Part shown: one piece after another, positions 34,000 to 63,815 of the stretch
Layout of the letters: each line of letters starts with the position of its first letter
Position numbering within the stretch: the stretch's first letter is position 1
Assembly (NCBI RefSeq): GCF_900116765.1
Contig: NZ_UETC01000001.1
Location: 310,001-374,000, forward strand
DNA: 64,000 bases
Direction: 5' to 3'
From: Jannaschia seohaensis
Lineage (GTDB): Bacteria; Pseudomonadota; Alphaproteobacteria; Rhodobacterales; Rhodobacteraceae
Notes under the pieces: model-generated
The model's input: only the letters and a program-made list of their open reading frames with translations
Databases searched by the model: none
Told to the model about the DNA's origin: nothing
Made by a program: the position numbers and the translations under genes

Positions 34000-34056
34000 A
34001 GGGGGGCTCTGCCCCCCGCTTCGCCCCCCCGGAGTATTTTTCGCCAGAAGAAGGGG
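34000..34056 (+). repeat. Dispersed hairpin-plus-core repeat, copy 1
   Basis: G-rich hairpin GGGGGGC-tct-GCCCCCC (34001-34017) followed by the core CCCCCCGGAGTATTTTT and GCCAGAAGAAGGGG (34024-34056). The AGAAGAAGG end touches the stop codon of the minus-strand M20 gene. Related copies are at 41710, 43760, 55364, 58461 and 63757. Confidence 0.8.
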
Positions 34057-35226
34057 TCAGGTGGTGAGGAGGTCGGCCGCCGCCATGGCGAGGATCCGGG
34101 TGGCGGCGATCAGGTCTGGCTCGGCCGTGTCTTCGGCGAAATCGTGGCTGATTCCGCCGATGCTGGGGGCGAAGAGCATGGCGGCGGGCATCAGCCGGGC
34201 GACGTTGGTGGCGTCGTGGAGGGCGCCCGAGGGCATCTCGCGCCAGCGGCCGGGAAGCTGGGCCTCGGCGGCGCGGGCGAGGGCGGCGCGCAGGCGCGGG
34301 TCCATCGCCGTGGGCGGTAGGGCAGAGGTTTCGGAGATCTCCAGCGCGAGGCCGGTGGCTGCGGCGGCTTCGGCCAGGGCGGTGCGGATCGCGGTCTCCA
34401 TCCGGTCGAGGCGGTCGGCCTCGCCGTCGCGCCATTGCACGGTGAAGCGGGCCCGGCCGGGCACGGCGGAGGGCGCGTTCGGGTGCAGGGCGACATGGCC
34501 GATGGTCCAGACGCTCTCGGGGCGGGCGACGTTGCGCAGGGCGTCCGCGATGGCGGCATGAGCGGCGGCGAGGCCGGTCATCGCGTCGCGGCGCATGGGC
34601 ATCGGCGTGGTGCCCGCGTGGTTCTGTGCGCCGGTCAGCGTGACGGTGATCTGGCGGAGGCCGACGATGGCGGTGACGACACCCGCCGCCTCGCCGGCCT
34701 GATCCAGGACCGGACCCTGCTCGATATGCAGTTCGAGATAGGCGGAGAAATCGGACGGGTCGGGGAAGGGGCCGGTGGACGGCAGGGCGCGGCGTGCCTC
34801 GGCGAAGGACAGGCCGTCCAGGTCGGTCAGCGCGTCGGCGGCCTCGAGCGTGAGCGCGCCGGACCAGATCTCGGAGCCGGTGGTGGCGCCGAAGCGGCCT
34901 TCTTCGTCCTGGAAGCTGACAACGGAGACTTCGGGGTTCGACCGGGCCACCTCCAGCCCGGCGATCACGCCCAAGGCGCCGTCGAGCCAGCCCCCCTCCG
35001 GTTGGGTATCGGTATGGGAGCCGATCAGCAGGGGACCGCGCAGGCCCCAGACATTGCCCGCCGGGTCGATGCGGGCGGTGAGCCCGGCCTCGGCGAAGCG
35101 CTCGGCGAGCCAGAGCCGGGCGCGAACGTCCTCCGCGTCGAAGGCGCGGCGGACGACGCCCCGGCCGCGCGTCCCGATGGCGCGGAGCGCGTGCAGGTCG
35201 GCGAGGAAGCGGGAGGGATCGATCAT
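34057..35226 (-). CDS. M20-family Zn amidohydrolase (N-carbamoyl-amino acid hydrolase / allantoate amidohydrolase type)
   Basis: 389 aa from [11 protein letters not shown] at 35226. Two-metal M20 ligands are recognisable: [49 protein letters not shown], and the later [11 protein letters not shown] and [13 protein letters not shown]. The dimerisation domain carries [15 protein letters not shown]. Substrate could be allantoate, ureidoglycolate or N-carbamoyl amino acids; the sequence alone does not decide. A longer start at 35262 would overlap the protease gene. Starts 4 bp after that gene's stop. Confidence 0.87.
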
Positions 35227-35230
35227 AGGG

Positions 35231-37351
35231 TCAGAGGAGCACCAGGTCGTCCGCAAGGTCAACCAGCCGGGCCGGCGGTGCGAGGAGCGTCAGCGAACTG
35301 TCGTCGGAGACTTGGAAGGTGATCGCGCCGTCCTCCGCGCGCGTCGCCCCCCGGGCGATCCGCCCGAGATGGAGCTCGGACAGCCCCAGGGCCGACATGT
35401 CCAGGCGGACGATCTCGCCGTCGGTCCAGTCGGCCAGGCTGTCATGGCCCCCGACGAAGACGAACATATCCACGCCCTCGCCTCCGATCAGGCGGTCATT
35501 GCCCTGGCCCCCCGCGAGCGTGTCCGGCCCGGCCCCGCCGGACAGGATGTCGTCCCCGGCCCCGCCGAGCAGCGTGTCACGCCCATCGCCGCCGATCAGC
35601 GTGTCCTCCGCCGCCCCGCCATCGAGCCAGTCGCGCCCGCCGCCGCCGCGCAGGTCGTCAGAGCCGGCCCCGCCTGTCAGCGCATCGCCGCCGGTCCCGC
35701 CTTCGAGCGTATCGTCCCCGGCTTCACCGTGGAGCACGTCGCTGCCCGCGCCGCCTTTCAGGCGGTCGGCATCTTCGCCGCCTTCCAACGTATCGTCGCC
35801 CGCCTCTCCGAGCAGCGCGTCGATGCCGGCCTTGCCGCGGAGGAGATCGTTGCCCAGGTCGCCCCGCACCGTGTCGTCGCCCGGCCCGCCGACGAGGATG
35901 TCTGGATAGTGCCGCCCCAGGATCAGGTCGTCTCCGGCGTCCCCGATCAAGACCTCACCTTGCTCCACGTCCGCCCAATCGTCGTCATTGCCTTCGTCGG
36001 ATTCGGAGGCGGTGAGCAGACCCGCGTCGAGCGTGTCATCGTCCGCGCCGCCACGTATACTATCGACGCCCGGCCCCCCGTTCAGGTTGTCGTTCCCGTC
36101 GCCGCCCTGGAGCGTGTCGAAATTGCTCCCGCCCAGGAGGGTGTCATCGCCCGCCCCGCCATCCAGATCGTCGCGCCCGTCATCGCCCAGCAGAAGGTCG
36201 CGCCCGTCCTCCCCTCGAAAGACCGCGCCCCAATCATATCCCGAGATCGTGTCGTTCCCCGCGCCGCCGAATACGGTGGCGCCGCCGTTCGCGCCGAAGA
36301 TCCTGTCGTTGCCGTCGTCGCCCCACAGGTGGTCCCAACCGCCGGAGCCATCCAACGTGTCGTTGCCAGGGCCTCCGAACAGCGTGTCCCACCCGTCGCT
36401 CCCCACGAGCCGGTCATCGCCCTCGTCGCCCTGCAGCCGGTCCCACCCGGCGACGCCGTAGAGCGTGTCGTTGCCCGGGCCGCCGGACAGGGTGTCGTTC
36501 GTCACGCTTCCTACGAGCCCATCATTCCCGCCGCGTCCCCCGGCTTTGCCGCCGAAGCCCCGCGTTAGAATGACGTCGTCGCCCGCCCCCCCCGCGATCC
36601 CGAGGGTCTCGGTCCTCCGGTCATAGGCAAAGGTCCAGTCTTCGGTGTCCTGCGGCGGGCCGTAGATGTGGCGCAGCGCCTCGACGTCCAGGTGTTGCGG
36701 CCGGGTCGGCAGGCTCGGGGCGAAGTTGTTGTAGGTCATCACCGTGTGGTCGAGCCCGTCGAGCCAGTTCGTGAGAACCTTCACCCCTTCATGCGGGTGG
36801 GACAGGCCCAGGGCATGGCCGAGTTCGTGCAGCAGGGTGAGATAGGCGGAAGAGCCCTCGACCCATTGGCCCTGCTCGGCCATGACAAGGTTGGCCGAGC
36901 CGAAATCCTCCCGTGTGGCATAGGGATAGCCGGAATAGCCGGAAAAGCCGAAATCCAGCGTGCCGACGTCGAAGGCCTCGATCATCGCGGGCCCGTCGAT
37001 CTCGACCAGGGTGATGCCCGCGACGGCGCCGAACGCATCGGCCGCCTTGTGGAACGCCTCGCGCTCGGAGCGGGTGAAGGGGCGCGGCTCCCTTGCGCCG
37101 AAGTGGAGCTCCGAGGGCGGCGGCAGGTCGTCGCCGTCCGGGAAGCGATAGGTGACCACGACGGGCGTGCCGAGGGGATATTCCGCGTTCCAGCGCTTCG
37201 CGTCGAAGTCCTGATAGGCGAGGATCGCGGTGTAGTCCGTGACGATCTCGACATCGCCGAAGGTATAGGGCGCTACGTCCTGCCCCTCGAGCGTGCCGTG
37301 GGCCACGACAGGCGACGTGGCGCGGTCGTGATGATCGTGTTGGTCACGCAT
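35231..37351 (-). CDS. RTX-type zinc metalloprotease (serralysin-like M10) with long calcium-binding repeat region
   Basis: 706 aa, no N-terminal signal, as expected for type I secretion. The catalytic motif [11 protein letters not shown] sits at residues 175-185, with Met-turn VMTYN near 204. From about 250 to 640 the protein is a long run of GGxGxDxLxG-type nonapeptides (for example [20 protein letters not shown]), which fold as a calcium-bound beta-roll. The end ([22 protein letters not shown]) is hydrophobic, like RTX secretion signals. No secretion ATPase, membrane fusion protein or TolC-like gene is nearby. Confidence 0.9.
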
Positions 37352-37454
37352 CGGCGGCCTCCGAGACTGAAGACCCGTTTAATTTCCATTGCCCACGCCG
37401 AAATGACAAAAGTCAACGTAGGCACGGATGCCCCCCGGCCGGTGTCCTCGGCTG

Positions 37455-40400
37455 CTAGACTTCCTCGACCATCGCCACCCCCGGCAGCGACCGGAGCGCG
37501 CCCTTGATCTGCGGGTTGACCGGATATTCGCCGGGCAGCAGCATCTCGACCTCGCCGGGCAGGTCTTCACCCAGGAGGCAGAGATGGACCGGGCCGCGCC
37601 CGCGGGCCTTCGTTTCCGACGAGACCCGCTCCAGCAGGCCCGAGAGCGGGGCCAGGGCGTCGGGGCCGCCTTCCACGAAGATGCGCAGGCCGATTTGGGG
37701 CGCGGCCTCGACGGCCTCGTCCATGGGCGTGACCGAGCGGGCCAGCAGCTTGAGCTGGTCGGCCTCCTGCGTGGCCTCGACCTGAAGCAACACGCGGCAG
37801 CCGGTCTCCAGATGCTGGCGCGAGGCGTCGAGCGTGTCGGAGAAGACCATGCATTCGTAACCGCCCGACGGGTCGCTGGCCTGAAGGAAGGCGAAGCGGT
37901 TGCCGCGCGCCGATTTCCGCTCCTGCCGGCTGGCGACGATGCCGGCCATCTTGACGAGGCGCGGGCCCTGGCGCGTCAGCTCCTGCACTTGGGCCAGGGT
38001 CAGCACGTCCTGGCGCTTGAGCGCGGGCATGTAGTCGTCGAGCGGGTGGCCTGAGAGGTAGAAGCCGATCGCCTTGAACTCCTCGGCGAGGCGCTCGGCG
38101 GGCAGCCAGTCGTCGCGGGTGGCCAGGCGCGGCTCGGGCAGATCCTCGCCCGCCTCTCCGAACAGGCTGACCTGATTGGAGGCGCGCTGTTCGTGGATCG
38201 CCGCCGAATAGCCGACCAACGCGTCCAGCGCATCGAGCACCCGCGCGCGGTTGCTGTCGATCTGGTCGAAGGCGCCCGCCCGCGCGAGCATCTCCAGCGG
38301 GCGCTTTCCGACGCGCTTGAGGTCCACGCGGCGGGCGAAGTCGTAGAGGGTCGAGAAGGGTTTCTCCGCCGTTTCCCGGGCTTGACCCGGGACCTCGCCG
38401 TCGGAGGAGGCCCCGGCTCGGGGGCCGGGGCGCGACGTGCCTCGCCGCGCCGTCACGATCAGCTCCATCGCGTCGACGCCCACGTTCTTCAGCGCGCCCA
38501 GGGCGTAGATCAGCTGGCCGTCCTTCACGGTGAACTTCGCCTCGGAGCGGTTGATGCAGGGCGGCACGATCTCCAGCCCCAGCCCTCCGCGCTCCTTCGA
38601 CTTGCGGACCTCCTCGGCATAGACGGCCAGCTTGTCGGTCAGGTGGATGTCGGAATTCATGATCCCGGCCATGAACTCCACCGGGTGGTTCGCCTTGAGC
38701 CAGGCCGTCTGGTAGCTGACCACGGCATAGGCGGCGGCGTGGGATTTGTTGAAGCCGTAATTGGCGAACTTGTCGAGCAACGCCCAGACCTCTTCGGCCT
38801 TCTTCTTGTCGACGCCGTTCTTGGCGCAGCCTTCCAGGAAGATCGGCTTCTGCGCGTCCATCTCGGCCTGGATCTTCTTGCCCATGGCGCGGCGCAAGAG
38901 GTCGGCCCCGCCCAAGCTGTAGCCCGCCAGCTTCCGGGCGATCTCCATCACCTGCTCCTGGTAGACGATGATGCCCTGGGTCTCGTCTAGGATGTCGTCG
39001 ATCAGCGGGTGGAGTTTGTCGCGGGCGCTGAGGCCGTTCTTGACCTCGCAATATTTCGGAATGTTCTCCATCGGGCCGGGACGGTAGAGCGCGACCAGCG
39101 CCACGATGTCTTCGATGCAGGTGGGCTTCATCCGGCGCAGCGCGTCCATCATGCCCGTCGATTCCACCTGGAACACGGCGACCGTCTGCGCGCTGGCATA
39201 GACGCGGTAGGCGCCGGGGTCGTCGAGCGGGATCGCGTTGATGTCGTTCTCGGTGCCCTCGAACGGCTCGTAGATGACGCGCCCGTCGGCGGCGACATGC
39301 AGGTCGCGTCCCTGCTCGCGGATCAGACGCACGGCGTCCACCACCTGGGTCAGGGTCTTCAGGCCCAGGAAGTCGAACTTCACCAGACCGGCTTTCTCGA
39401 CCCATTTCATGTTGAACTGGGTCGCCGGCATGTCCGAGCGCGGGTCTTTGTAGAGCGGCACCAGGCGGTCCAGCGGCCGGTCCCCGATGACGACGCCCGC
39501 CGCATGGGTCGAGGCGTTGCGCAGCAGGCCCTCAAGCTTCTCGGCGAAGTCCAGCAGGCGCGCGACCGGGTTGGTGCGGCCCTCCCGCCGGTCCTGGTCG
39601 CTCTCGCGCGCGGCCTCGCGCAGGCGGGGTTCCTCGGCGAGGGCCTTGGTGATCGAGACCGGCTTGACCCCCTCGACCGGGATCATCTTCGAGAGCTGGT
39701 CGCATTGGCCGTAGGGCATCCCCAGCACCCGGCCCACGTCCCGGACGGCGGCCTTCGACAGAAGCGCGCCGAAGGTGATGATCTGCCCCACCTTGTCGCG
39801 GCCGTATTTGCCCTGGACGTAGCGGATGACCTCTTCCCGGCGGTCCATGCAGAAGTCGATGTCGAAGTCCGGCATCGAGACCCGTTCGGGGTTGAGGAAC
39901 CGCTCGAACAGAAGGCCATAGCGCAGCGGGTCCAGGTCGGTGATCGTCAGCGCATAGGCCACCAGGGAGCCCGCGCCCGAGCCCCGGCCAGGGCCTACCG
40001 GAATGTCCTGCTCCTTGGCCCATTTGATGAAGTCGGCAACGATCAGGAAATAGCCGGGGAACCCCATCCCCTCGATGATCCCCAGCTCGTAGTCGAGCCG
40101 TTTTTCATACTCCTCGACCGGCGCGGCGTGCGGGATGACGGCGAGGCGCGCCTTCAGCCCCTCGACCGATTGGCGGCGCAACTCCGCCACCTCGTCATCG
40201 GCGAACTTGGGCAGGATCGGGGCGCGACCATAGGCCTTGAAGGCGCAGCGGCGCGCGATCTCGACGGTGTTTTCCAGCGCCTCGGGCAGGTCGGCGAACA
40301 GCGCGGCCATCTCCGACGGCGATTTGAACCGATGCTCCGGCGTGACCCGGCGGCGGGGCGCCTGCTGGTCGACATAAGCGCCCTCGGCGATGCAGAGCAG

Positions 40401-41060
40401 CGCGTCATGCGCTGCATGCATCCCGGCATCTTTGAAATACACGTCGTTGGTCGCGACCAGCGGCAGGCCCTTGGCATAGGCCGCCTCGACATGGAACCGC
40501 TCGGTCGGTTCGGGCTGCCGGTGGCGCTGTAACTCGACATAGAGCCGGTCGCCATAGATCCCGTGCAGCCGGTCGAGCAGCGCCTCCGCCTTCGCCTCCT
40601 GCCCCGCCGCGACCAACCGCCCGATGGGTCCGTCTGGCCCCCCGGTCAGGCAGATCAGGCCATCCGAAAACGCCTCGAGCTCCTCCACCGTCACCTGCGG
40701 CACCATGTCGGGCCGCTCCAGATAAAGGCAGGAGTTCAGTCGCATCAGGCATTCATAGCCTGCCTCGGTCTGCGCCAGCAGGACGATGGGCGCGGGCGCG
40801 CGCGGCTTCTCGCCGGGCGGCGCCGGGTCGAACATCAGGTCCACCTGGCAGCCCATGATCGGTTGCACGCCCTTGCCGGCAATCTTGGTCGCCGCTTCCA
40901 GGGCGCAGAACATGTTGTTCGTGTCCGTCACCGCGACGGCGGGCATGCCCAGCCCCGCCGCCAGACCGGGCAGCTCGCCCAGGCGCAGTGCGCCCTCCAG
41001 CAGCGAATATTCGGTGTGGACGCGCAGGTGGATGAATCGGGGATCGGCCATGCCGGACAT
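37455..41060 (-). CDS. dnaE: DNA polymerase III subunit alpha
   Basis: Replicative polymerase; 1201 aa. An N-terminal PHP domain (FIHLRVHTEYSLLEGAL) is followed by the C-family polymerase core with [17 protein letters not shown] and the catalytic acidic motif MPDFDIDFCMDRR. STHAAGVVI, the YRPGPMENIP and FNKSHAAAYAVVSYQTAWLKA blocks, and a C-terminal OB-fold follow. The start may be codon 1 or codon 4 (MADPRF). An extra peptide of about 25 residues (873-897), encoded by a palindromic DNA element, lies just after the ALGALKNVGVDAMELIV segment. Confidence 0.97.
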   Translation of the reverse strand: MSGMADPRFIHLRVHTEYSLLEGALRLGELPGLAAGLGMPAVAVTDTNNMFCALEAATKIAGKGVQPIMGCQVDLMFDPAPPGEKPRAPAPIVLLAQTEAGYECLMRLNSCLYLERPDMVPQVTVEELEAFSDGLICLTGGPDGPIGRLVAAGQEAKAEALLDRLHGIYGDRLYVELQRHRQPEPTERFHVEAAYAKGLPLVATNDVYFKDAGMHAAHDALLCIAEGAYVDQQAPRRRVTPEHRFKSPSEMAALFADLPEALENTVEIARRCAFKAYGRAPILPKFADDEVAELRRQSVEGLKARLAVIPHAAPVEEYEKRLDYELGIIEGMGFPGYFLIVADFIKWAKEQDIPVGPGRGSGAGSLVAYALTITDLDPLRYGLLFERFLNPERVSMPDFDIDFCMDRREEVIRYVQGKYGRDKVGQIITFGALLSKAAVRDVGRVLGMPYGQCDQLSKMIPVEGVKPVSITKALAEEPRLREAARESDQDRREGRTNPVARLLDFAEKLEGLLRNASTHAAGVVIGDRPLDRLVPLYKDPRSDMPATQFNMKWVEKAGLVKFDFLGLKTLTQVVDAVRLIREQGRDLHVAADGRVIYEPFEGTENDINAIPLDDPGAYRVYASAQTVAVFQVESTGMMDALRRMKPTCIEDIVALVALYRPGPMENIPKYCEVKNGLSARDKLHPLIDDILDETQGIIVYQEQVMEIARKLAGYSLGGADLLRRAMGKKIQAEMDAQKPIFLEGCAKNGVDKKKAEEVWALLDKFANYGFNKSHAAAYAVVSYQTAWLKANHPVEFMAGIMNSDIHLTDKLAVYAEEVRKSKERGGLGLEIVPPCINRSEAKFTVKDGQLIYALGALKNVGVDAMELIVTARRGTSRPGPRAGASSDGEVPGQARETAEKPFSTLYDFARRVDLKRVGKRPLEMLARAGAFDQIDSNRARVLDALDALVGYSAAIHEQRASNQVSLFGEAGEDLPEPRLATRDDWLPAERLAEEFKAIGFYLSGHPLDDYMPALKRQDVLTLAQVQELTRQGPRLVKMAGIVASRQERKSARGNRFAFLQASDPSGGYECMVFSDTLDASRQHLETGCRVLLQVEATQEADQLKLLARSVTPMDEAVEAAPQIGLRIFVEGGPDALAPLSGLLERVSSETKARGRGPVHLCLLGEDLPGEVEMLLPGEYPVNPQIKGALRSLPGVAMVEEV
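38373..38442. repeat. Double-palindrome element inserted in frame in dnaE
   Basis: Two perfect hairpins in a row: CCCGGG-cttga-CCCGGG (38375-38391) and CCCCGGC-N6-GCCGGGG (38411-38430). The block codes for a Gly/Arg/Pro/Ser-rich peptide (GTSRPGPRAGASSDGEVPGQ) where DnaE proteins normally have only a short loop. The composition and double palindrome suggest a mobile palindromic repeat that kept the frame. Confidence 0.65.
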
Positions 41061-41223: not shown

Positions 41224-42609
41224 ATGGAGATTTCCTTCCGTCTCAACGGCGAAGACGTCACCGCCACGCCCGAGGCCCCGACCGAGACCCTGCTGGACTG
41301 GCTGCGCGCCCGCGGTCTGACCGGCACCAAGGAAGGCTGCAACGAGGGCGATTGCGGCGCCTGCTCGGTGGTCGTGACTGGGGCCGACGGCACACCCCGC
41401 GCGCTCAACGCCTGCATCCTGTTTCTGCCGCAGTTGGCCGGCAAGGCCGTCCGCACCGTCGAGGGCATCGCCGCCCCCGACGGCACCCTGCATCCCGTCC
41501 AGCAGGCGATGATCGACCGTCACGGCTCGCAATGCGGTTTCTGCACGCCCGGCTTCATCACCACCCTGGCCGCCGCCCATGCGCGCGGCGACACCGATCA
41601 CGCCGACCAGATCGCGGGCAACCTGTGCCGTTGCACCGGCTACGCCCCGATCCTGCGCGCCGCCCGCGACATCGAGACGGCTCCGGTTCCCCCCCACATG
41701 ATCGAGGCTCCTCTTCTTCTGGTCGCAAATACTCCGGGGGAGCGCGAGGGGGCTGGCCCCCTCGCTCCGACCTCGGCGGATGAACTGGCCGCCTGGTATC
41801 TCGCCCACCCCGATGCCACCCTGATCGCCGGCGCCACCGATGTGGGGCTTTGGGTCACCAAGCAGTTCCGCGACCTGGACAAGGTCGCTTTCCTGAACCG
41901 CTGCGAGGATCTCAAGGGCATCGAGATCGGCGCGGACGAGATCCGCATCGGCGCCATGACCGACATGGAGACCCTCCGCCACGCCATCGCGCCGCACCAT
42001 CCCAGCTTCGCCGAGCTTCTGCGCCGCTATGGCTCGGTCCAGGTGCGCAACGCCGCCACGATCGGCGGCAATATCGCCAACGGTTCGCCCATCGGCGACA
42101 GCCCGCCCGCGCTGATCGCCCTGGGCGCGACGCTGCATCTCAGACGGGACGATGAGAGACGGCATATGCCGATCGAAGAGTTCTTCCTCGACTACGGCAA
42201 GCAGGATCGCCGCCCGGGGGAGTTCGTCGAGGCGATCACGATCCCACGCCAGACAGACGCGCTCTATTGCCACAAGGTCTCAAAGCGGTTCGATCAGGAC
42301 ATCTCGGCGCTTTGCATGGGGGTCAATCTGCCGGTTGTGGATGGCGTCATCGCGCGCCCCCGCATCGCCTTCGGCGGCATGGCGGGAACGCCCAAGCGCG
42401 CGGCCCGGGCCGAGGCGGTGCTCGACGGCCAGGCACCCGGCGAGGCGGCGTTCGCCGCCGCCGTCGAGGCCCTGGCGGGGGATTTCACGCCGCTCTCGGA
42501 CATGCGCGCCTCCGCGACCTACCGGCTGGAGGCGGCGCGCGGCGCGCTGATGGGGGCGTTCCACGCGATGACCGGGACGGGTCCCGCGCTCCTGGAGGTG
42601 CGGCCATGA
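41224..42609 (+). CDS. xdhA: Xanthine dehydrogenase small subunit (2Fe-2S and FAD domains)
   Basis: Electron-transfer subunit of xanthine dehydrogenase; 461 aa. Residues 1-150 carry the two 2Fe-2S clusters with C39, C44, C47, C64 and C104, C107, C135, C137. The FAD domain follows (LIAGATDVGLWVTK, NAATIGGNIANGSPIGDSPPALIALGA). Between them, residues about 162-181 are an extra linker (APLLLVANTPGEREGAGPLA) encoded by a dispersed repeat. The stop overlaps the xdhB start by 4 nt. It heads an eight-gene overlapping run devoted to purines. Confidence 0.95.
   Translation: MEISFRLNGEDVTATPEAPTETLLDWLRARGLTGTKEGCNEGDCGACSVVVTGADGTPRALNACILFLPQLAGKAVRTVEGIAAPDGTLHPVQQAMIDRHGSQCGFCTPGFITTLAAAHARGDTDHADQIAGNLCRCTGYAPILRAARDIETAPVPPHMIEAPLLLVANTPGEREGAGPLAPTSADELAAWYLAHPDATLIAGATDVGLWVTKQFRDLDKVAFLNRCEDLKGIEIGADEIRIGAMTDMETLRHAIAPHHPSFAELLRRYGSVQVRNAATIGGNIANGSPIGDSPPALIALGATLHLRRDDERRHMPIEEFFLDYGKQDRRPGEFVEAITIPRQTDALYCHKVSKRFDQDISALCMGVNLPVVDGVIARPRIAFGGMAGTPKRAARAEAVLDGQAPGEAAFAAAVEALAGDFTPLSDMRASATYRLEAARGALMGAFHAMTGTGPALLEVRP
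41710..41763 (-). repeat. Dispersed hairpin-plus-core repeat, copy 2, in frame inside xdhA
   Basis: Read on the minus strand: hairpin GAGGGGG-N4-CCCCCTC (41746-41763) then core CCCCCGGAGTATTTGCGACCAGAAGAAG (41741-41711, written here in part). It is translated as the linker between the Fe-S and FAD domains of XdhA without breaking the frame. Confidence 0.72.
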
Positions 42610-44936
42610 CCGTCGCCAAGCCCCTTCCCCATGAGAGCGCCCGCCTGCACGTCACCGGCGCCGCGCGCTATACCGACGACGTGCCGGCGCCGGCGGGCTG
42701 CCTGCACCTCGCATTCGGCGTGGCGGAGGTCGCGCGCGGCCGCCTGGACGCTCTGGATGTCAGCGCGGTGCGGGCCGCGCCGGGCGTCGCCTTCGTGCTG
42801 ACGGCGGAGGATCTCGATCCGATGCCCGACTGCTCGCCATCGCTGCACGACGAGCCGCTGCTCTGCACCGGCGAGATCCAGTATGCGGGTCAGCCGCTTT
42901 ATATCGTCGCGGCCGACAGCCACCTGAACGCCCGCCGCGCCGCGCGCCTGCATCGGGCCGAGGTGACGGAGTTCGACCCCATCCTGACGGTAGAGGAGGC
43001 GTTGGCCGCCGAAGCCTGGTTCGATGACGGCCCGCGCGTCTGGTCCGACGGCGATGTCGCGGCCGGGCTGGTCGCCGCCCCCTGCCGGCTGGAGGGCCAG
43101 TTCGAGATCGGCGGGCAGGAGCATTTCTACCTGGAGGGCCAGGCCGCGCTCGCGCTGCCGGGCGAGGGCGGCGAGATGCATGTCGTCACCTCGACCCAGC
43201 ATCCGACCGAAATCCAGCACAAGGTTGCCGACGCGCTGGGCGTGCCGATGCACGCGGTCCGCTCGGAGGTGCGGCGGATGGGGGGCGGCTTCGGCGGCAA
43301 GGAGAGCCAGGGCAACGCGCTGGCCATCGCCTCGGCCCTCGTCGCGGCGCGGACGGGCCGCCCGGCGCGGATGCGCTACGACCGCGACGACGATTTCGTC
43401 ATCACCGGCAAGCGCCACGATTTCCGCATCGCCTATGAGGTCGGGCATGATGATGCGGGGCGCGTTATGGCGGTGCGCTTCCGTCATTGGGTGCGCTGCG
43501 GCTGGTCGCAAGACCTGTCCTTGCCCGTGGCCGACCGGGCGATGCTGCATGCCGACAACGCCTACGACATCCCGGCGCTGGAGGTGACCTCCTGGCGGCT
43601 GCGCACCAACACCCAGTCGGCCACCGCTTTTCGGGGCTTCGGCGGACCGCAGGGCATGGTGGGGATCGAGCGCGTCATGGATCACGTCGCGCAGGCCGTG
43701 GGGCGAGATCCGTTGGCTGTGCGGCGCCTCAATTTCTACGTCGATGCGGCCGAGCGGCCGGGGGGGCTGTCTGCCCCCCCGGACCCCCCCGAGGATATTT
43801 CCACAGGGAAGAAGGGACACACGCATTACGGGCAGCGGGTCGAGGATTTCTGCCTGGGCGCGATGGTCGGGCAGCTGGCGGAGCGCTGCGACTATGCGGG
43901 GCGGCGGGCGCGGGTGGCGGCGTGGAACGCGGACAGTTTTAGGCTAAAACGCGGGATCGCGCTGACGCCGGTGAAGTTCGGGATCTCGTTTACACTCACG
44001 CATCTCAACCAGGCGGGGGCGCTGGTGCATGTCTATGCCGATGGGTCGATCCACCTGAATCACGGTGGCACGGAGATGGGGCAGGGGCTTCATTCCAAGG
44101 TGGCGCAGGTGGCCGCGAGCCGCTTCGGCTGCGATCCGGCGCGGGTGCGGATCACGGCGACGGATACCGGCAAGGTGCCGAATACCTCGGCCACCGCCGC
44201 CTCCTCCGGCGCGGATCTGAACGGCATGGCCGTGGCCCGTGCCTGCGACGCGATCCGGGACCGGATGGCGGCCTTCCTGGCGGAGGAGCATCAGGCCGAC
44301 CCGGCCTCGGTCGTCTTCGCGGAGGACCGGGTGCGGGTCGCGGGCGCGGAGTATGGCTTCGAGGAGGCGGCGGCCAAGGTCTATATGGGCCGCGTGTCCC
44401 TGTCCGCGACGGGGTTCTACGCCACGCCCGACATCTCCTGGGACCGGCAGGCGGGGCGGGGGCGGCCGTTTTACTATTTCGCCTATGGTGCGTCCTGTTC
44501 CGAGGTGGTGGTCGACCGGCTGACCGGCGAGAACCGCATCCTTAGGACCGACATCCTGCATGACGCTGGGGCATCGCTCAATCCGGCGCTGGATATCGGC
44601 CAGATCGAGGGAGGTTTCGTCCAGGGCGCGGGCTGGCTGACCACCGAGGAACTGGTCTGGGACGGCAAGGGGCGGCTGAGAACCCATGCGCCCTCGACTT
44701 ACAAGATCCCCTGCGCTTCGGATGTGCCGGAGGCGTTCCACGTCCATCTCTGGGACGGGGCCAACCGGGAGGAGACGATCTATCGCTCCAAGGCCGTGGG
44801 GGAGCCGCCCTTCATGCATGGGATCAGCGTGTTTTCGGCCCTCTCGGACGCCGTCGCGGCGGCGGGAGGCGCGCCGCTGATCGATGCGCCTGCCACGGCG
44901 GAGCGGGTGCTGATGGCGATCCGCGCGGGCCGATGA
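42606..44936 (+). CDS. xdhB: Xanthine dehydrogenase large subunit (molybdenum-binding)
   Basis: Catalytic molybdopterin subunit oxidising hypoxanthine/xanthine to urate; 776 aa from the ATG at 42606. Blocks include GAARYTDDVPAPAGCLHLAFGV, EGQAALALPGEGGEM, GGGFGGKESQGN, FRGFGGPQGM and GTEMGQGLHSKVAQVAASRFG. The active-site Glu lies in VGEPPFMHGISVFSAL. Around residues 385-400 an extra Pro/Gly-rich peptide (GGLSAPPDPPEDISTGKKG) is encoded by another dispersed repeat copy. Start and stop overlap xdhA and xdhC by 4 nt. Confidence 0.95.
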   Translation: MTVAKPLPHESARLHVTGAARYTDDVPAPAGCLHLAFGVAEVARGRLDALDVSAVRAAPGVAFVLTAEDLDPMPDCSPSLHDEPLLCTGEIQYAGQPLYIVAADSHLNARRAARLHRAEVTEFDPILTVEEALAAEAWFDDGPRVWSDGDVAAGLVAAPCRLEGQFEIGGQEHFYLEGQAALALPGEGGEMHVVTSTQHPTEIQHKVADALGVPMHAVRSEVRRMGGGFGGKESQGNALAIASALVAARTGRPARMRYDRDDDFVITGKRHDFRIAYEVGHDDAGRVMAVRFRHWVRCGWSQDLSLPVADRAMLHADNAYDIPALEVTSWRLRTNTQSATAFRGFGGPQGMVGIERVMDHVAQAVGRDPLAVRRLNFYVDAAERPGGLSAPPDPPEDISTGKKGHTHYGQRVEDFCLGAMVGQLAERCDYAGRRARVAAWNADSFRLKRGIALTPVKFGISFTLTHLNQAGALVHVYADGSIHLNHGGTEMGQGLHSKVAQVAASRFGCDPARVRITATDTGKVPNTSATAASSGADLNGMAVARACDAIRDRMAAFLAEEHQADPASVVFAEDRVRVAGAEYGFEEAAAKVYMGRVSLSATGFYATPDISWDRQAGRGRPFYYFAYGASCSEVVVDRLTGENRILRTDILHDAGASLNPALDIGQIEGGFVQGAGWLTTEELVWDGKGRLRTHAPSTYKIPCASDVPEAFHVHLWDGANREETIYRSKAVGEPPFMHGISVFSALSDAVAAAGGAPLIDAPATAERVLMAIRAGR
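43760..43816 (+). repeat. Dispersed hairpin-plus-core repeat, copy 3, in frame inside xdhB
   Basis: G-rich hairpin GGGGGG-N7-CCCCCC (43761-43779), then CCCCCCCGAGGATATTTCC and ACAGGGAAGAAGG up to 43816. This variant has GAGGATATTT in place of GGAGTATTT. The reading frame of xdhB passes through it intact. Confidence 0.7.
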
Positions 44937-54574: not shown

Positions 54575-54583
54575 CCCCCGCGC

Positions 54584-55363: not shown

Positions 55364-55409
55364 GCCGGAGCGTGCGCCTCCGGCGGGGATATTTGAGCAG
55401 GGAAGAAGA
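55364..55409 (+). repeat. Dispersed hairpin-plus-core repeat, copy 4 (hisZ-hisG gap)
   Basis: Hairpin GCCGGAG-N7-CTCCGGC (55364-55384) followed by GGGGATATTTGAGCAGGGAA and GAAGA. The AGAAGA end touches the hisZ stop codon at 55410. This copy has the GGGATATTT variant of the core. Confidence 0.72.
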
Positions 55410-58120: not shown

Positions 58121-58187
58121 CTCGGGTCCTCTCGTCGCCCGCCCGATACCGCCCGCCCGCGGGTCACGCAACCAGGAGGACCGCCCC

Positions 58188-58382
58188 ATGCAGGCCCATG
58201 AGGAACGCATCGCCCACCTGACCCGCGCCGTCGAAGACCTTTCGGACGTCGTCGCCGCGCAAGCCCGTGCCATCGAGGTGCTGGAGCGCCGCGTCGCCAT
58301 GCTGATGCAAAGGGCTGCCGAGGCCGAGTTGGACGCGGGTGGAACCGTGCCGCTTGCCGACCAGCGGCCGCCGCATTGGTGA
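58188..58382 (+). CDS. slyX: SlyX-family protein
   Basis: 64 aa, ATG at 58188 with AGGAGGA ribosome site. One amphipathic coiled coil ([20 protein letters not shown] then [19 protein letters not shown]) and the typical ending PPHW. Function of SlyX is unknown. It is divergent from hisS, with only 67 bp between the starts. Confidence 0.88.
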
Positions 58383-58460
58383 GGGGCGCGCAGACGTCGC
58401 CCTGACGGCGCGCGCGGGATGCAGGCCCTTGCCAGGGGGCGTGCCCGGCCGGTCGGTCGG

Positions 58461-58526
58461 AGGGGGCGCTGCCCCCGTCGCCCGGAGGGCGACTCCCCCG
58501 GAGTATTTTTGGCCAGAAGAAGGGGC
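58461..58526 (+). repeat. Dispersed hairpin-plus-core repeat, copy 5
   Basis: Hairpin GGGGGC-gct-GCCCCC (58462-58476), a second GGAGGGCGACTCCC-type stretch, then the core CCCCCGGAGTATTTTTGGCC and AGAAGAAGGGG (58494-58526). It lies in the 540-bp gap between slyX and the P450 gene, just before a decayed gene fragment. Confidence 0.8.
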
Positions 58527-58612
58527 CATTGACCCCTGGGGCATCCCGCAACCGGGGGAACATGGCGCCGGCCGTGCCCTGCCGGATCGGGTGCCTTTGG
58601 GGGGTGATCGCG

Positions 58613-58795
58613 CCATGGGGCCGATGGCGCAGGACTTCCACGACGCCTTCGGAACCGGGGCCGATCCGCGCGGGGCCGTCGCGCCTCGATCCAGGCCCTC
58701 GCGGTGGAGAACGCGTCGCAGCGGGCGCTCAACGGGACACGGATGGACCGGCTCGAGCGGCTGGAGCGCCGGCTGCCCTCGGCGTTGTCGCCTTC
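58613..58795 (+). pseudogene. Frameshifted remnant of an S74 (endosialidase-type) chaperone tail
   Basis: First frame: [20 protein letters not shown], the hallmark of the self-cleaving intramolecular chaperone at the end of tail-spike and similar proteins. After a frameshift near 58688 the second frame continues [20 protein letters not shown] and [13 protein letters not shown], the coiled coil that follows in intact members. The upstream part of the protein is missing. The rest of the 58383-58926 gap holds the repeat copy and no other supported gene. Confidence 0.7.
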
Positions 58796-58926
58796 CGCGT
58801 GCCGATGGAGCGATCGCACGCGCCCCGCACTCTCCTCCGCCGAAAGGCTGTTTCGGCCGACGACGAACGGCCGCGGCGAGGGCGGCTGCAATTGACCGCA
58901 TCTGCGGGGAGCCGCATCCTGTGCCC

Positions 58927-60069
58927 ATGATCCTGACCGACCTGCCCGACGGCTTCCACGACGATCCTTGGCCGCATTACGCCGCGCTGCGCGAGGCGGG
59001 GGCGGTGCGGCAGCCGGATGGCTCGGTTCTGCTGGGGCGGCACCGCGACCTGGAGGCGGTCTACAAGGATCCGGCGACCTTCCGATCCGACAAGCGGGAG
59101 GTGTTCGCGCCCAAGTTCGGGGACACGCCACTCTATGCGCATCACACCACGTCGCTGGTGTTCAATGATCCGCCTCTGCATGGGCGCGTGCGCCGGGTGC
59201 TGACCGGTGCGCTGACGCCCCGCGCCCTGGCGCAGCTCCAGCCGCGGTTGGAGGCGCTGGTGGACGGGCTGCTCGATCGGATGGGGGCGCAGCCGGACCT
59301 GATCGAGGATTATGCCGCGGCCATCCCGGTCGAGGTGATCGGCGACCTGCTGGACGTGCCGCGCGCGGAGCGGGGGCCGTTGCGGGGCTGGTCGCTCGCC
59401 ATCCTGGGGGCGTTGGAGCCGGCCCCGGGGGCGGCGCGGCTGGAGGCGGGGAACGCGGCGGTTGAGGCGTTCCTGGCCTATCTGCGGGATCTGGTGGCGC
59501 GCCGGCGGGCGCGGCCGGGCGATCCCGAGACGGATGTGCTGACGCGGCTGGCCGCCGATCCGGACCTGTCGGAAGCGGAGCTTCTGCATAACTGCATCTT
59601 CATCCTCAATGCCGGGCACGAGACGACAACCAACCTGATCGGCAGTGCGCTGTGGCTTTTGGACCGGCACAAGGCGGCGCGGGGCGCCGATCCCGCCGCG
59701 CTGATCGAGGAGACCTTGCGCCTGGAGAGCCCGAACCAGCTGGGCAACCGGCAGACGACCGCGCCGGTGACGCTCGCGGGGGTGGAGATCGCGGCCGGGA
59801 CCGATCTGCACCTTTGCATCGGGGCGGCGAACCGCGACGAGGCCGTTTTCGAAGACCCTGACCGCCTGCGCCCGGGCCGCCCGCCGCGCCATCTGGCCTT
59901 CGCCGCCGGGCCGCATGTCTGCATCGGACTGACGCTTGCCCGGATGGAGGGGCGCGTGGCGCTGGCGCGCTTCCTGGCGCGACATCCCGGCTATCGCATC
60001 GTCGATGCGGAGAGGGCCGGGCGCGTCCGATTCCGCGGCTTCTCCCGGCTGACGGCGCGGCTGGGCTGA
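58927..60069 (+). CDS. Cytochrome P450
   Basis: Haem monooxygenase, 380 aa from [16 protein letters not shown]-helix AGHETTTN (oxygen activation), ExxR in EETLRLESP, and the haem-Cys loop [18 protein letters not shown] are all present. It is soluble, bacterial class I type, and needs a ferredoxin and reductase that are not encoded in the window. Substrate unknown. No close operon partner: the HIT gene begins 45 bp later. Confidence 0.93.
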
Positions 60070-60114
60070 GGCGGCGAGGCGCGCTACATCCCTTGCGACT
60101 GAAGAGGAGCCTCC

Positions 60115-60495
60115 ATGGCCTACGACTACGACGACCAGAACGTGTTCGCCCGCATCCTGCGCGGCGAGATCCCCAACGACACGGTGATGGAGACCGAGCA
60201 CACGCTGGCCTTCAACGACATCACGCCCCAGGCGCCGGTCCATGTCCTGGTGATCCCCAAGGGGGCCTATGTCACCTATGACGATTTCTGCGCCAATGCC
60301 TCGGAGGCGGAGATCGTCGATTTCGCGCGCACCTGTGCCGCCATCTGCAAGGAGCGGGGCATCACCGCCGACGCCTCCCCCGGCTTCCGCGCTCTGACCA
60401 ATGCCGGGGAACATGCCGTTCAGGAGGTGCCGCATTTCCACATGCACATCATCGGCGGGCGTCCTCTGGGGCGGATCCTGTCGAAGATGGACTGA
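60115..60495 (+). CDS. HIT-family nucleotide hydrolase (HINT-like)
   Basis: 126 aa. The histidine triad is HFHMHIIGG near the C-terminus; the N-terminus NVFARILRGEIPNDTVMETEHTLAFNDI and PVHVLVIPKGAYV are HINT-type. Family members hydrolyse AMP-lysine or related adenylates. GAGGAGCC ribosome site before the ATG. Start is well supported. Confidence 0.92.
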   Translation: MAYDYDDQNVFARILRGEIPNDTVMETEHTLAFNDITPQAPVHVLVIPKGAYVTYDDFCANASEAEIVDFARTCAAICKERGITADASPGFRALTNAGEHAVQEVPHFHMHIIGGRPLGRILSKMD

Positions 60496-60652
60496 GGCGG
60501 CGGGCGAGAGGCTTGGGTCGGGGCGGATCGCAAGGTGGGTGCGAGAGGGCGACGCCCGGGACGGCCGTGGCGGATTCCGCTGATCGGGCCGGTCGGCGGC
60601 GGCGCGTGATGTCATCCGGCGCGACGCTTGGGCAGCCGCGGGAGGCCCCCAT

Positions 60653-61411
60653 ATGCGCCGTATGATCCGTGCCTTGCTTCTTTGGCCCATGGGCCTCTTC
60701 GCGGTGTTTTTTCTATTGCCGGCCCTGCTTGCCAGCCTGTGGTGGGCGGTGCAGGATCGGCCCTCCTCCTGGCGGGCGGCGGATTGGAGCGCGTCGGGAT
60801 TGCTGCCGGCGGCCGCGGAGATGCCGGAGGCCGCGATCCACGTCCTGGCCGCGCGCACGGGCGGCGCCAAGGGCGCCCTCTCGGTCCATTCCTGGATCGT
60901 CTACAAGGAGGCGGGCGCCGATCGCTGGACTCGTGCGGAAGTGGTGGGCTGGGGCACGCCCCTGCGCCGCGACGCCTATGCGCCGGACGCCCGTTGGTAC
61001 TCGAATGCTCCCGGTTTCGTAGGCTCGGTCACGGGGCCGGAGGCGGCCGCGCTGATTCCCCGGATAGAGGCCAGCATTCGCGACTACCCCTGGGCGCGGC
61101 GGGGCGATTACGGCATCTGGCCGGGGCCAAATTCCAACACCTTCGTGGCCCATATCCTGCGGGAGGTGCCCGAGATCGGACTGACCCTGCCGCCGCACGC
61201 GGTCGGGCGCGATTTCACCGGCCGCGGTCCGGTCGTGACCTGGGATGCGGGCGGCGATTGGCATCTCAGCTGGTCGGGGCTGGCGGGCCTGTCGGCGGGG
61301 CCGCGCACGGGCCTGGAGCTGCACCTGCTGGGCCAGGTCTTCGGTGTGGACGTGCTGCGCCCGGCGCTGAAGCTGCCGGGAATCGGGCGCGTCGGCGTGC
61401 CGTTCTCCTGA
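60653..61411 (+). CDS. DUF3750 protein
   Basis: 252 aa. One N-terminal membrane segment (ALLLWPMGLFAVFFLLPALL) then a mostly periplasmic domain. Family blocks: SVHSWIVYKEAGADRWTRAEVVGWG, RWYSNAPGFVGSVTG, YGIWPGPNSNTFVAHILREVPEIGLTLPPHAVGRDF. DUF3750 function is unknown; the N-S-N-T-F segment resembles a hydrolase-like core. It stands alone. Confidence 0.85.
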   Translation: MRRMIRALLLWPMGLFAVFFLLPALLASLWWAVQDRPSSWRAADWSASGLLPAAAEMPEAAIHVLAARTGGAKGALSVHSWIVYKEAGADRWTRAEVVGWGTPLRRDAYAPDARWYSNAPGFVGSVTGPEAAALIPRIEASIRDYPWARRGDYGIWPGPNSNTFVAHILREVPEIGLTLPPHAVGRDFTGRGPVVTWDAGGDWHLSWSGLAGLSAGPRTGLELHLLGQVFGVDVLRPALKLPGIGRVGVPFS

Positions 61412-61609
61412 CGGGGAACGTCGCGACGGAGGGGCGCAATACCGCAAACCCCGTTGCGCCCGCCCCCCGGCCCGGGCTAGCCCTGCCCGCGACGACGCCC
61501 CGGACGGGGCCGGACAGGTGGCCGCCAGATGCGCCGACCTAGGCAGGGGGCGCGCAGGCGGTATCGTCGCCGGATCGGTCCGCGGCCTCTGCCGATACGA
61601 GGTCCGATC

Positions 61610-61828
61610 ATGCTCCGCTTTCTTCCCCTCTTCCTTCTGGCCGTGCCGGCGCAGGCGCATACCGGCCATTTCGGCGAGCTTGCGGGCCACGACCACTGGG
61701 TTCTGGGCGCTGGTCTGGGGGCCATCGCCGGGGCGGCCGCCATCGCCTGGGTGAAGGGGCGGCGCAAGAAGGACGAACCCGAGGAGCCCTCCGAAGAGGC
61801 CGACACCCCCGAGGAGGCCCCCGCATGA
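61610..61828 (+). CDS. DUF6732 small membrane protein
   Basis: 72 aa: signal-like N-terminus MLRFLPLFLLAVPAQAHTGH, a second hydrophobic segment (WVLGAGLGAIAGAAAIAWV), then a basic and acidic tail. This pattern (AHxGH then GHxHW) is the DUF6732 family, usually next to cobalamin genes in Rhodobacterales. It overlaps cbiX by 4 nt, so it belongs to that operon. A metal-related role is an inference from the His residues. Confidence 0.75.
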   Translation: MLRFLPLFLLAVPAQAHTGHFGELAGHDHWVLGAGLGAIAGAAAIAWVKGRRKKDEPEEPSEEADTPEEAPA

Positions 61829-63030
61829 CCGAGAAGACCGGCGTCATGATTTGCGGGCATGGCAGCCGCTCCCAATCGGCGGTCGACGAGTTCGCGACCC
61901 TTGCGCAAAAGCTGCCCGCCCTGCTGCCCGCCGATTGGGAGGTGGATTACGGCTATCTGGAATTCGCCAACCCGGTGATCCGCGACGGGCTGGACCGGCT
62001 GCGGGAGAAGGGCTGCACCCGGATCCTGGCGGTGCCCGGGATGCTGTTCGCCGCGATGCACGCGAAGAACGACATCCCGACGGTGCTCAACGCCTATGCG
62101 GCGCAACACGGGCTCGACATCCGCTACGGGCGGGAGCTTGGCGTGGACCCGAAGATGCTCGCCGCCGCCGCGGGCCGGATCCGCGAGGCATTGGACGCGG
62201 CCCCGGACGACGTGCCGCTGCATGAGACCTGCCTTGTAGTCATCGGACGTGGCGCCTCGGACCCGGACGCGAACGGCAATGTCGCCAAGATCGCCCGGAT
62301 GCTGCACGAGGGTCTGGGGACCGGCTGGCTGGAGGTCGGCTTCAGCGGCGTGACCTTCCCGCTGGTCGAGCCCTGCCTGGAGCATGCGGCCAGGCTCGGC
62401 TACCGCCGGATCGTCGTCTTCCCCTATTTTCTGTTCAGCGGCATCCTGATCGACCGGATCTACGGCTTCACCGACCGCGTCGCCGCCGCCAACCCGCAGA
62501 TCGAGTTCCTCAAGGCCAGCTATCTGGGCGACCACGACCAGGTTCTCGCCACCTTCGCCGAGCGCATCCGCGAACAGGCGGGCGCGAACCCGCCGCCGAA
62601 TTGCGGCCTCTGCGCCTACCGGGAGCAGGTGCTGGCGCTGGAGGGCGGGCGCCATGTCCATATTCGCCCCGAGGATCGCCAGCATCCCGCCTTCGCCGAC
62701 ACGCCGCCGCCGACCTGCGTGCTCTGCAAATACCGCACCCAGGTGCTCGGCTTCGAGGCGGAGGTCGGCGCGATCCAGGAATCGCATCACCACCATGTCG
62801 AAGGGCAGGGCGCCTCGGCCCCTGGCTCCAACGTGGCGGATTGCACGCTCTGCGACACGTTCTGCACCGGGCTCTGCCGGCTGGAAGCGCAGGCGGACCA
62901 TCACCATCACCCGCATACTCATCACCATGGCGGCGGCCATACTCATCACCACGATCACCATCACCCGACCTATCCCCATGCCGCCCACCCGCACGGGCCG
63001 GAATCGGCACGCCGGACCGCGAAAGGCTGA
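61825..63030 (+). CDS. cbiX: Long CbiX-type sirohydrochlorin cobaltochelatase with His-rich tail
   Basis: Inserts cobalt into the early corrin precursor. 401 aa with two CbiX-fold halves: GVMICGHGSRSQSAVDEF and VVIGRGASDPDANGNV, each with the family's start block. The C-terminal part has three Cys clusters (CGLCAYREQVLALE, CVLCKYRTQVLGFE, then CTLCDTFCTGLC), of which the first two are near repeats, and ends in a His-rich tail (HHHHPHTHHHGGGHTHHHDH). The tail may store metal; a cluster-binding role for the Cys pairs is inferred from the CbiX family. Confidence 0.9.
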   Translation: MTEKTGVMICGHGSRSQSAVDEFATLAQKLPALLPADWEVDYGYLEFANPVIRDGLDRLREKGCTRILAVPGMLFAAMHAKNDIPTVLNAYAAQHGLDIRYGRELGVDPKMLAAAAGRIREALDAAPDDVPLHETCLVVIGRGASDPDANGNVAKIARMLHEGLGTGWLEVGFSGVTFPLVEPCLEHAARLGYRRIVVFPYFLFSGILIDRIYGFTDRVAAANPQIEFLKASYLGDHDQVLATFAERIREQAGANPPPNCGLCAYREQVLALEGGRHVHIRPEDRQHPAFADTPPPTCVLCKYRTQVLGFEAEVGAIQESHHHHVEGQGASAPGSNVADCTLCDTFCTGLCRLEAQADHHHHPHTHHHGGGHTHHHDHHHPTYPHAAHPHGPESARRTAKG

Positions 63031-63031
63031 C

Positions 63032-63097
63032 ATGACCGCCTGCGCCCTTCCCGCCTATCGGGCAAATGTTGCTAAAAAGTTCACGGTTCGCCTATGA
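63032..63097 (+). CDS. Possible 21-aa leader ORF before cobH
   Basis: ATG one base after the cbiX stop, ending TGA over the cobH ATG (ATGA). The product would be MTACALPAYRANVAKKF followed by TVRL. The stretch is more AT-rich than its flanks. It could be a coupling ORF, a remnant, or chance; no attenuator-like hairpin was seen. Confidence 0.3.
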   Translation: MTACALPAYRANVAKKFTVRL

Positions 63098-63726
63098 GGC
63101 CCTATGAGCGGGATCCGGCTGCAATCTATGCCGCGTCTTTCGCCACCGTGCGGGCAGAGGCGAATCTGGACCGTTTTCCCCCCGATGTGGCTGAGATCGC
63201 GGTTCGCGTGATCCATGCGTGCGGCATGGTCGAGGTCGCCGACAGGCTGGCCTATACGCCCGATGTGGCGGCCTCCGGCACCGCCGCGCTGCGGGCCGGG
63301 GTGCCGATCTATGCCGATTGCGAGATGGTCGCGGCGGGCCTGACCCGCCGCCTCTTGCCCGAGGCGTGCGAGGTTCGCTGCACGCTGAACGACCCCCGCA
63401 CGCCCGCCCTGGCCGACGCGCAGGCGACCACCCGCTCCGCCGCCGCCGTCGATCTGTGGGAAACCGAGGGCGCCGTGATCGCCATCGGCAACGCCCCCAC
63501 CGCGCTCTTCCGCCTGCTGGAGCGCCTGGACGAGGGCGCGCCCAAGCCGGCGGCCATCCTCGCCTTCCCGGTCGGCTTCGTCGGCGCCGCCGAATCGAAG
63601 GCCGAGCTCGCCGCCAATCCGCGGGCCACGCCCTTTCTGACCCTGCGCGGCCGCCGGGGCGGATCGGCCATGGCCTCCGCGGCGGTGAATGCGCTCGCTA
63701 TCCTCGCTGCGGGAGGGGTCCAATGA
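63094..63726 (+). CDS. cobH: Precorrin-8X methylmutase
   Basis: Moves a methyl group in the corrin ring to give hydrogenobyrinate. 210 aa, normal length. Blocks: YERDPAAIYAASFATVRAEA, IHACGMVEVADRL, IYADCEMVAAGLTRRLL, IGNAPTALFRLLERL and FPVGFVGAAESKAEL, and the catalytic His in VIHACG. It follows cbiX by 63 bp. The downstream gap carries a repeat copy. Confidence 0.95.
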   Translation: MRPYERDPAAIYAASFATVRAEANLDRFPPDVAEIAVRVIHACGMVEVADRLAYTPDVAASGTAALRAGVPIYADCEMVAAGLTRRLLPEACEVRCTLNDPRTPALADAQATTRSAAAVDLWETEGAVIAIGNAPTALFRLLERLDEGAPKPAAILAFPVGFVGAAESKAELAANPRATPFLTLRGRRGGSAMASAAVNALAILAAGGVQ

Positions 63727-63756
63727 ACTATCCCCTGCCGGACGGGCGCACGCCCC

Positions 63757-63815
63757 GTCCTTCTTCTGGCCGAAAATACTCCGGGGGGGCCCGCAGGGCC
63801 GGGGGCAGCGCCCCC
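63757..63815 (-). repeat. Dispersed hairpin-plus-core repeat, copy 6
   Basis: Core on the minus strand: CCCCCCCGGAGTATTTTCGG and CCAGAAGAAGG (63788-63758). The hairpin GGGGGC-agc-GCCCCC lies at 63801-63815. The AGAAGAAGG end faces the 3' end of cobH, 31 bp after its stop. Confidence 0.8.

Follow-up and report, generated by a model that had tools for sequence, protein, structure and literature searches.

The Repeat and Its Copies in the Window

The window analysed here, a stretch of 64,000 nucleotides from Jannaschia seohaensis (G000:C16:310001-374000) in a draft genome of 4.84 Mb and 37 contigs, contains a dispersed repeat with units of ~45-67 bp. The unit features a GC hairpin, of several interchangeable types and at times missing, followed by a bipartite core of the form GA(G)TATTT-NNN-12-mer. 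Six copies had been predicted from the sequence of the window, and all of them are present within a few bases of where they had been placed, while the reversed patterns gave 0 matches in 4.84 Mb. The single core with a variant that had been proposed resolves into two families, core A (GGAGTATTT-NNN-GCCAGAAGAAR) and core B (GGATATTT-NNN-CAGGGAAGAAR). In the window, core A occurs as GGAGTATTT-NNN-GCCAGAAGAAG in four copies (34031+, 41713- with ACCA, 58500+ and 63759-) and core B as GGATATTT-NNN-CAGGGAAGAAG in two (43793+ and 55387+). Moreover, the number of six was too low, as a relaxed-expression search added a seventh copy belonging to a third family, C. The copies are as follows, with the names of the genes around them taken from our own reading of the sequences.

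33998..34056, plus strand: copy 1, GC hairpins and core A (34031-34053), in a gap flanked by convergent genes; its GAAGAAG end touches the minus-strand gene 34057-35262 at its stop codon (34057)
41713..41765, minus strand: copy 2, hairpin GCGAGGGGGCCAGCCCCCTCGC and a core A that deviates at one position (ACCA), in frame within xdhA; it encodes PLLLVANTPGEREGAGPLAP at the linker between two XdhA domains
43758..43816, plus strand: copy 3, core B with hairpin CCGGGGGGGCTGTCTGCCCCCCCGG, in frame within xdhB; it encodes GGLSAPPDPPEDISTGKKG, aligned to the GGLSAPPSPPEPIATKK loop of PDB 1jro_B
55364..55408, plus strand: copy 4, core B with a CCTCCGGC-type hairpin, in the gap between a hisZ-like gene (stop codon 55410) and hisG (start 55276), antisense to both
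58459..58525, plus strand: copy 5, double hairpin (GGGGGCGCTGCCCCC and GTCGCCC/GGGCGAC) and core A, flanked by two divergent genes, hisS (start 58120) and P450 (start 58927)
63759..63819, minus strand: copy 6, GC hairpins and core A, downstream of and antisense to a plus-strand gene whose end is at 63726
5870..5897, plus strand: copy 7, family C, TGAGTATTT-GGA-AACCCGTGATG (AACCCGTGATGAGGGG), without a GC hairpin

The AGAAGAAGG end is directed toward the 3' end of a gene in three of the six predicted copies (34031, 55387 and 63759) and not in four, as the original prediction had it. Two of the three lie beside stop codons (34031 beside 34057, 55387 beside 55410), and the copy at 63759 is 33 bp away from the stop at 63726. 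An Rfam scan of the window yielded 0 matches above the gathering score.

Genome Census and Conservation of the Core

The genome harbors ~190 copies, 99 with core A and 91 with core B (~39 copies per Mb). Allowing up to three mismatches, the search for core A returned 100 rows, with 55, 40, 4, and 1 of them at 0, 1, 2, and 3 mismatches; the row with three mismatches was dropped as probable chance, which leaves the 99 copies. For core B, 91 rows were obtained (58, 31, 2, and 0, respectively), and the backward control was 0 in both cases. The single mismatches of core A (n = 40) affect the first base in 24 cases, the last base in 9 and inner positions in 7; likewise, 26 of the 31 in core B fall on the last base. 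Inner-core changes thus amount to 10 in 99 core-A copies and 8 in 91 core-B copies, i.e., ~0.5% per position.

The spacer behaves differently. A pattern search of the 4.84 Mb genome gave 58 core-A rows and 58 distinct core-B places (60 rows), with 0 matches for the reversed patterns. Among the core-A copies NNN takes 13 different triplets (CCG in 22; G as third base in 51), and among the core-B copies 22 triplets, the commonest of which occur 7 times each (A or G as third base in 56). These 116 copies were chosen by exact pattern, and conservation is read only from the mismatch-tolerant censuses of both cores. A comparison of NNN with flanking triplets, direct or complementary, revealed no convincing link; the top pooled signal (23 vs 8.3 expected, offset 6) overlaps NNN itself.

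Placement Relative to Genes

For placement, 178 distinct copies in 174 stretches of the genome were used, 13 of 191 rows having been dropped (more than two mismatches, close to the end of a stretch, duplicate, or not fetched). Genes were called by an own order-3 frame model, which can extend starts and was therefore combined with a 150-bp rule. Convergent gaps hold 56 copies and divergent gaps 6, codirectional gaps hold 52 in either orientation, 11 copies lie inside predicted genes and 1 is undefined. Since background ratios of convergent to divergent gaps are 7 to 8 in the window and 7 to 21 in other gaps of at least 50 bp within the loci, the excess of 56 vs 6 is strong (binomial p = 3e-11 at equal odds). 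Hence, the genome-wide count proposed in the original prediction does reveal a bias toward gene 3' ends. The single orientation to be tested with it does not hold: with 52 sense and 52 antisense copies in codirectional gaps orientation bias is nil, so that a directional terminator is not supported, and the GAAGAAG end and the hairpin end face a 3' end equally often (108 each of the 166 intergenic copies that were classified). On the GAAGAAG side, 39 of 108 are within 20 bp of a stop codon. The bias toward gene ends probably reflects mainly tolerance, i.e., selection against insertion into promoters and structured protein regions.

Two further observations concern the surroundings of single copies. 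At L006, L009, L042, L077, L088, and L114, the GAAGAAG end is located 9-11 nt upstream of a predicted start and could act as a ribosome-binding site. A GTTAACC- or GTTAATC-like stretch follows within ~10 bases of the copy at L002, L018, L021, L036, and L107 and is perhaps a second intergenic motif or a regulator site.

Hairpin Types and Pairs of Copies

The GC hairpins are situated upstream of TATTT and were sorted by own regular expressions into five types, all of which are found with both cores. The counts (core A/core B) are 19/24 for single, 26/16 for double, 3/12 for CCTCCGGC, 2/3 for TTTCACAC and 3/3 for GCGAGGGG, with 5/0 unsorted. In the double type, 33 of 42 copies have a middle segment of at least 8 nt, and 20 of these 33 form a perfect arm of at least 4 compared to 10% in shuffles; the arms of this second hairpin differ between copies yet are complementary. 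Besides, some copies without hairpin keep the core. Most copies are single. Ten A/B pairs lie less than 300 bp apart in the parts of this genome that were examined; 8 of them are arranged tail-to-tail, 1 head-to-head and 1 in tandem.

In-Frame Copies Inside Proteins

Both XdhA and XdhB can be aligned from end to end with the xanthine dehydrogenase structures 2w3r/1jro of R. capsulatus, with the element peptides occupying the interdomain linker of XdhA and a loop of XdhB. Beside the XdhB peptide GGLSAPPDPPEDISTGKK, 1jro_B features GGLSAPPSPPEPIATKK, a like peptide at the same site in a solved structure, which probably derives from an element. The xdhB region was readable in 19 of 20 loci (not in G009), and an element or core is found at this site in 15 of the 19 species, this genome included and G003 with a degenerate core; G007, G015, G019, and G005 have none. 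On an XdhA tree built with the linker removed, in which strong support is limited to 4 of the 17 inner branches, the xdhB site requires at least 5 changes of hairpin type (14 rows), at least 11 of the 12-mer (15 rows) and at least 4 of presence (19 rows). The XdhA linker likewise holds reverse-oriented elements or core remnants in several species.

Further proteins carry element-encoded residues. In BchB, the element lies between Oxidored_nitro (12-406) and PCP_red (467-511), and in PutA of Paracoccus liaowanqingii between Pro_dh and Aldedh. The C-terminal residues of another Oxidored_nitro protein, taken as BchN-like, are encoded by an element, as are those of a MATE protein, whose stop codon is supplied by NNN. 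In XdhA, XdhB, BchB, and PutA, full-length domains are retained around the element peptide.

Distribution and Turnover Among Relatives

Exact core A was absent from all 39 relatives searched, including 19 of the same genus, and among these genomes occurs in this one only. The looser pattern TATTT-gap-GAAGAAG, which undercounts genomes using CGTGATG, ATCGAAG or GATGAGG 12-mers, gave 1815 matches vs 326 in the backward control among 120 genomes of the family including this one; 35 of them are enriched (at least 10 matches and at least 5x control). In the rest of the class, none of 150 genomes exceeded 4 matches, and none is enriched. Enrichment of the element among the genomes sampled is therefore limited to a single bacterial family, Rhodobacteraceae and kin, a name that rests on the named carriers. 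By name, the matches listed include Paracoccus, Roseovarius, Rhodovulum, Loktanella, Ruegeria, Shimia, and Actibacterium, while those in Bacillus, Clostridium and others look like chance.

Among the matches listed, one to three 12-mers prevail behind the free NNN in any one rich genome. The tetramers preceding GAAGAAG in other genomes comprise CCGA, AAGC, AAAC, GACA, CAGA, CCAA, CTCT and more, and whole 12-mers vary as well, with 22 matches across 20 stretches compared to 1 after reversal of the sequence. Plasmids also carry the element: 47 records matched, and of the 40 listed, 35 belong to Rhodobacterales genera and the other 5 match the hairpin part only. A plasmid record of Cereibacter sphaeroides MBTLJ-13, for example, holds the core TATTT-CGG-CCAGAATGAAAGG between gap and fba. 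With regard to viral spread, one pattern scanned in IMG/VR matched 13 contigs, two of which (L377 and L381) feature GC-rich element context by own reading.

Among 28 congener loci retrieved by pattern, 8 coincide with an element locus of this genome and have their element at the matching position, compared to ~2 expected from the ~7% of the genome covered by element loci (L146, L147, L148, L152, L153, L157, L158, and L164); L151 and L167 end ~80-190 bp short. By own reading, hairpin type differs in 7 of the 8 same-site pairs and the 12-mer in 7 of 8, with L164 differing from its counterpart L051 by one base. In other genera, L118/L042 and L325/L041 share the site with the core only. The joint switch of hairpin and 12-mer shows that long-lived sites exchange entire elements, and within any one genome the core stays exact.

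Interpretation

About an even chance is given to the explanation that the element is a non-autonomous small palindromic repeat of the repetitive extragenic palindrome (REP) or Rickettsia palindromic element (RPE) kind, whose bipartite core is read by a putative trans-acting protein. A protein of family-specific specificity would recognize the core and would either mobilize the element or replace resident copies. New families could then spread through the genome and take over old sites, and some in-frame copies might become fixed protein segments. Such a reader is the simplest common cause of element replacement plus exact cores. Hairpin swapping, in-frame insertions and uneven copy numbers favor mobility, while the lack of decayed copies favors continuing selection; for the reader, mobilization in the manner of REPs or RPEs is preferred over a host function. 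The small mobile element with a preferred site, offered as the second possibility in the original prediction, accordingly fits better than its first, given the in-frame insertions and the turnover at orthologous sites, although the matching transposase end was not found.

Among the closest parallels are RPEs and the corresponding Wolbachia palindromic elements (WPEs), small palindromic repeats that are described as inserted in frame in protein-coding genes and as present again at the same position in orthologues, with one gene region holding a WPE in Wolbachia and RPE-4 in Rickettsia (PMC3767692). The xdhB site resembles that case in holding differing hairpin and 12-mer types. Insertion in frame without breaking the gene and occupancy of the same site in orthologues are both found here (xdhB, 15 of 19). 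Nevertheless, the units are shorter (~45-67 bp vs 100-150 bp in the sections of PMC3767692 considered) and asymmetric; the palindrome is accompanied by an invariant bipartite core that lies outside it, the position is mostly intergenic at gene ends, and there are core dialects between genomes.

Several results weigh against a mobile repeat of this kind. Y1_Tnp (PF01797, Y1/RAYT transposase) has 0 matches in this genome and is absent from 19 of 24 element-rich relatives, any being present in 5 of 24, so that this transposase was rejected as the mobilizer and the putative core-reading protein, as far as tested, is not of the Y1/RAYT type. A scan of six genes beside or between neighboring copies detected no transposase: five encode ordinary enzyme or sugar-isomerase families, and one (L018) is without family. 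Neither a mobilizing enzyme nor an empty site with target duplication nor a recent insertion polymorphism was found. Very few copies are decayed, whereas a neutral mobile family should leave a tail of them, and this scarcity points to continuing selection on each copy, as expected for sites with a host function. The free NNN is left without explanation. Folding energies are weak relative to dinucleotide shuffles, with mean z of -0.4 to -1.3 by type and -2.25 to +0.21 for the six window copies. The tetramers are partly shared across genera (GCCA 15, AACA 11, and TGAA 9 of 79 named copies in GC-rich context) and, as GCCA occurs in several genera and also in congener G010, not strictly genome-specific. 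Finally, a record of Enemella evansiae (L274, 1850-1872), by name outside Rhodobacteraceae, contains a true element with GC hairpin, due either to transfer or to mislabelled DNA. Among the papers listed by searches of the open-access PMC literature, none was recognizable as describing this repeat, and neither core string occurs in ten of them checked for it; most subscription journals were outside that search, and a description there is possible.

A more far-reaching version is rather doubtful. It envisages a system common to the whole family, with one to three sequence-specific, fast-evolving proteins in each genome. These would read ~100-200 GAGTATTT-N3-12-mer sites at gene ends, keep them letter-perfect and, on a change of specificity, rewrite whole sets including the hairpin, and targeted replacement of resident elements would maintain the dialects.

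Should the preferred explanation be right, Rhodobacteraceae genomes encode a hitherto unrecognized protein that reads a bipartite DNA tag and differs in specificity from congener to congener, and segments of xanthine dehydrogenase, protochlorophyllide reductase, and proline dehydrogenase stem from the repeat. Moreover, same-site turnover in coding genes makes the spread of transposase-less RPE- or REP-like repeats directly testable in culturable organisms.

Alternative Explanations

The strongest rival, doubtful as it is, regards the copies as host-functional DNA-binding sites. Next to gene ends, ~200 occurrences of the GAGTATTT-N3-12-mer would be bound by a fast-evolving sequence-specific protein, which could terminate transcription as a roadblock, act as an insulator or anchor the nucleoid, and purifying selection together with concerted change of sites and protein would yield the dialects. 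An inner core conserved to more than 99% next to a free spacer does look like a protein footprint, the symmetric orientation suits an object bound to DNA, and prevailing 12-mers differ between most genomes while being uniform within families. Cores without hairpins also persist at orthologous sites (L118/L042, L325/L041, and L157/L095). Binding sites alone, however, give no reason for hairpin type and 12-mer to switch together, nor for two or three families to coexist in one genome, and copies in frame inside enzymes are odd places for them. In addition, congeners G005 and G012 have none by the GAAGAAG-type pattern, which other 12-mers would escape, and no binder protein was identified.

An RNA 3'-end element is unlikely. 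The repeat would act as a bidirectional terminator or as an mRNA-stabilizing 3' hairpin, and UAUUU would function either as a weak U tract or as a site for RNase E; as far as the consulted part of PMC6238624 goes, RNase E sites in R. sphaeroides are AU-enriched, which counts in its favor. As in intrinsic terminators, a GC hairpin stands near a T-rich stretch at gene ends: the preference for gene 3' ends is strong, GC hairpins lie just upstream of TATTT, and the second hairpin of the double type exceeds shuffles. Three of seven terminator-like sites in two stretches of the window overlap copies 1, 5, and 6 (34018-34035, 58492-58504, and 63740-63760), but their totals are within chance (5 vs 4.0 and 2 vs 4.6). 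Unlike intrinsic terminators, the element has no polarity, its TATTT is interrupted and placed behind a spacer, and its core is invariant in sequence. Hairpins are dispensable while the core is kept, the reverse of what is expected for a terminator, copies occur within translated genes, and the 12-mer dialects are left unaccounted for.

That the repeat belongs to one of the two known REP super-families, GTAG or CGTC, or is a REPIN driven by a RAYT, is very improbable. GTAG/CGTC REPs, bacterial interspersed mosaic elements (BIMEs) and REPINs are many-copy palindromes with inverted dimers, heterodimers and intragenic units, and CGTC REPs lack a dedicated transposase, as here, according to the portion of PMC3733652 used. 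Small GC palindromes in more than 100 copies, intragenic units and inverted dimers, as in the 8 tail-to-tail A/B pairs out of 10, are common to both. Yet the tag is missing: in the 10 nt before the stem GTAG occurs in 0 and CGTC in 5 of 91 copies, 25 of the 116 having been dropped because no matching stem lay in reach. Conservation is highest in the core next to the stem, and this core survives hairpin loss. There is no RAYT, with Y1_Tnp absent from this genome, and the consulted portion of that source describes nothing comparable to a long, invariant core of two parts beyond the palindrome.

The DNA uptake sequences of Neisseriaceae are characterized by species-typical spelling, location at 3' ends and inverted pairs. 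Dialects of an uptake or packaging signal, for natural uptake or gene transfer agents, would resemble them in these three respects, but with ~39 copies per Mb, far below the density of uptake sequences, several families per genome, modular hairpins, a long core with free NNN, in-frame coding copies and patchy presence among congeners, this is the least probable account of all.

Other Repeats in the Window and Genome

A DnaE-like gene (37455-41060) contains an in-frame GC-palindromic insert (TSRPGPRAGASSDGEVPGQARETAE) at 38349-38453 of the window, minus strand. On the plus strand it holds TCCCGGGCTTGACCCGGGA, which resembles CGTC-type REPs of alphaproteobacteria; no second copy was found in the sequence of this genome examined.

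The start of the family C 12-mer, AACCCGTGATG, is present in 6 copies in the sequence of this genome examined, and related 12-mers occur in congeners G003, G014, and G018. The TGAGTATTT class features no GC hairpin of the recurring types. At the contig ends L423, L424, L425, and L426, a near-identical TGAGTATTT element is embedded in long near-identical flanks, i.e., in a longer repeat that breaks the assembly.

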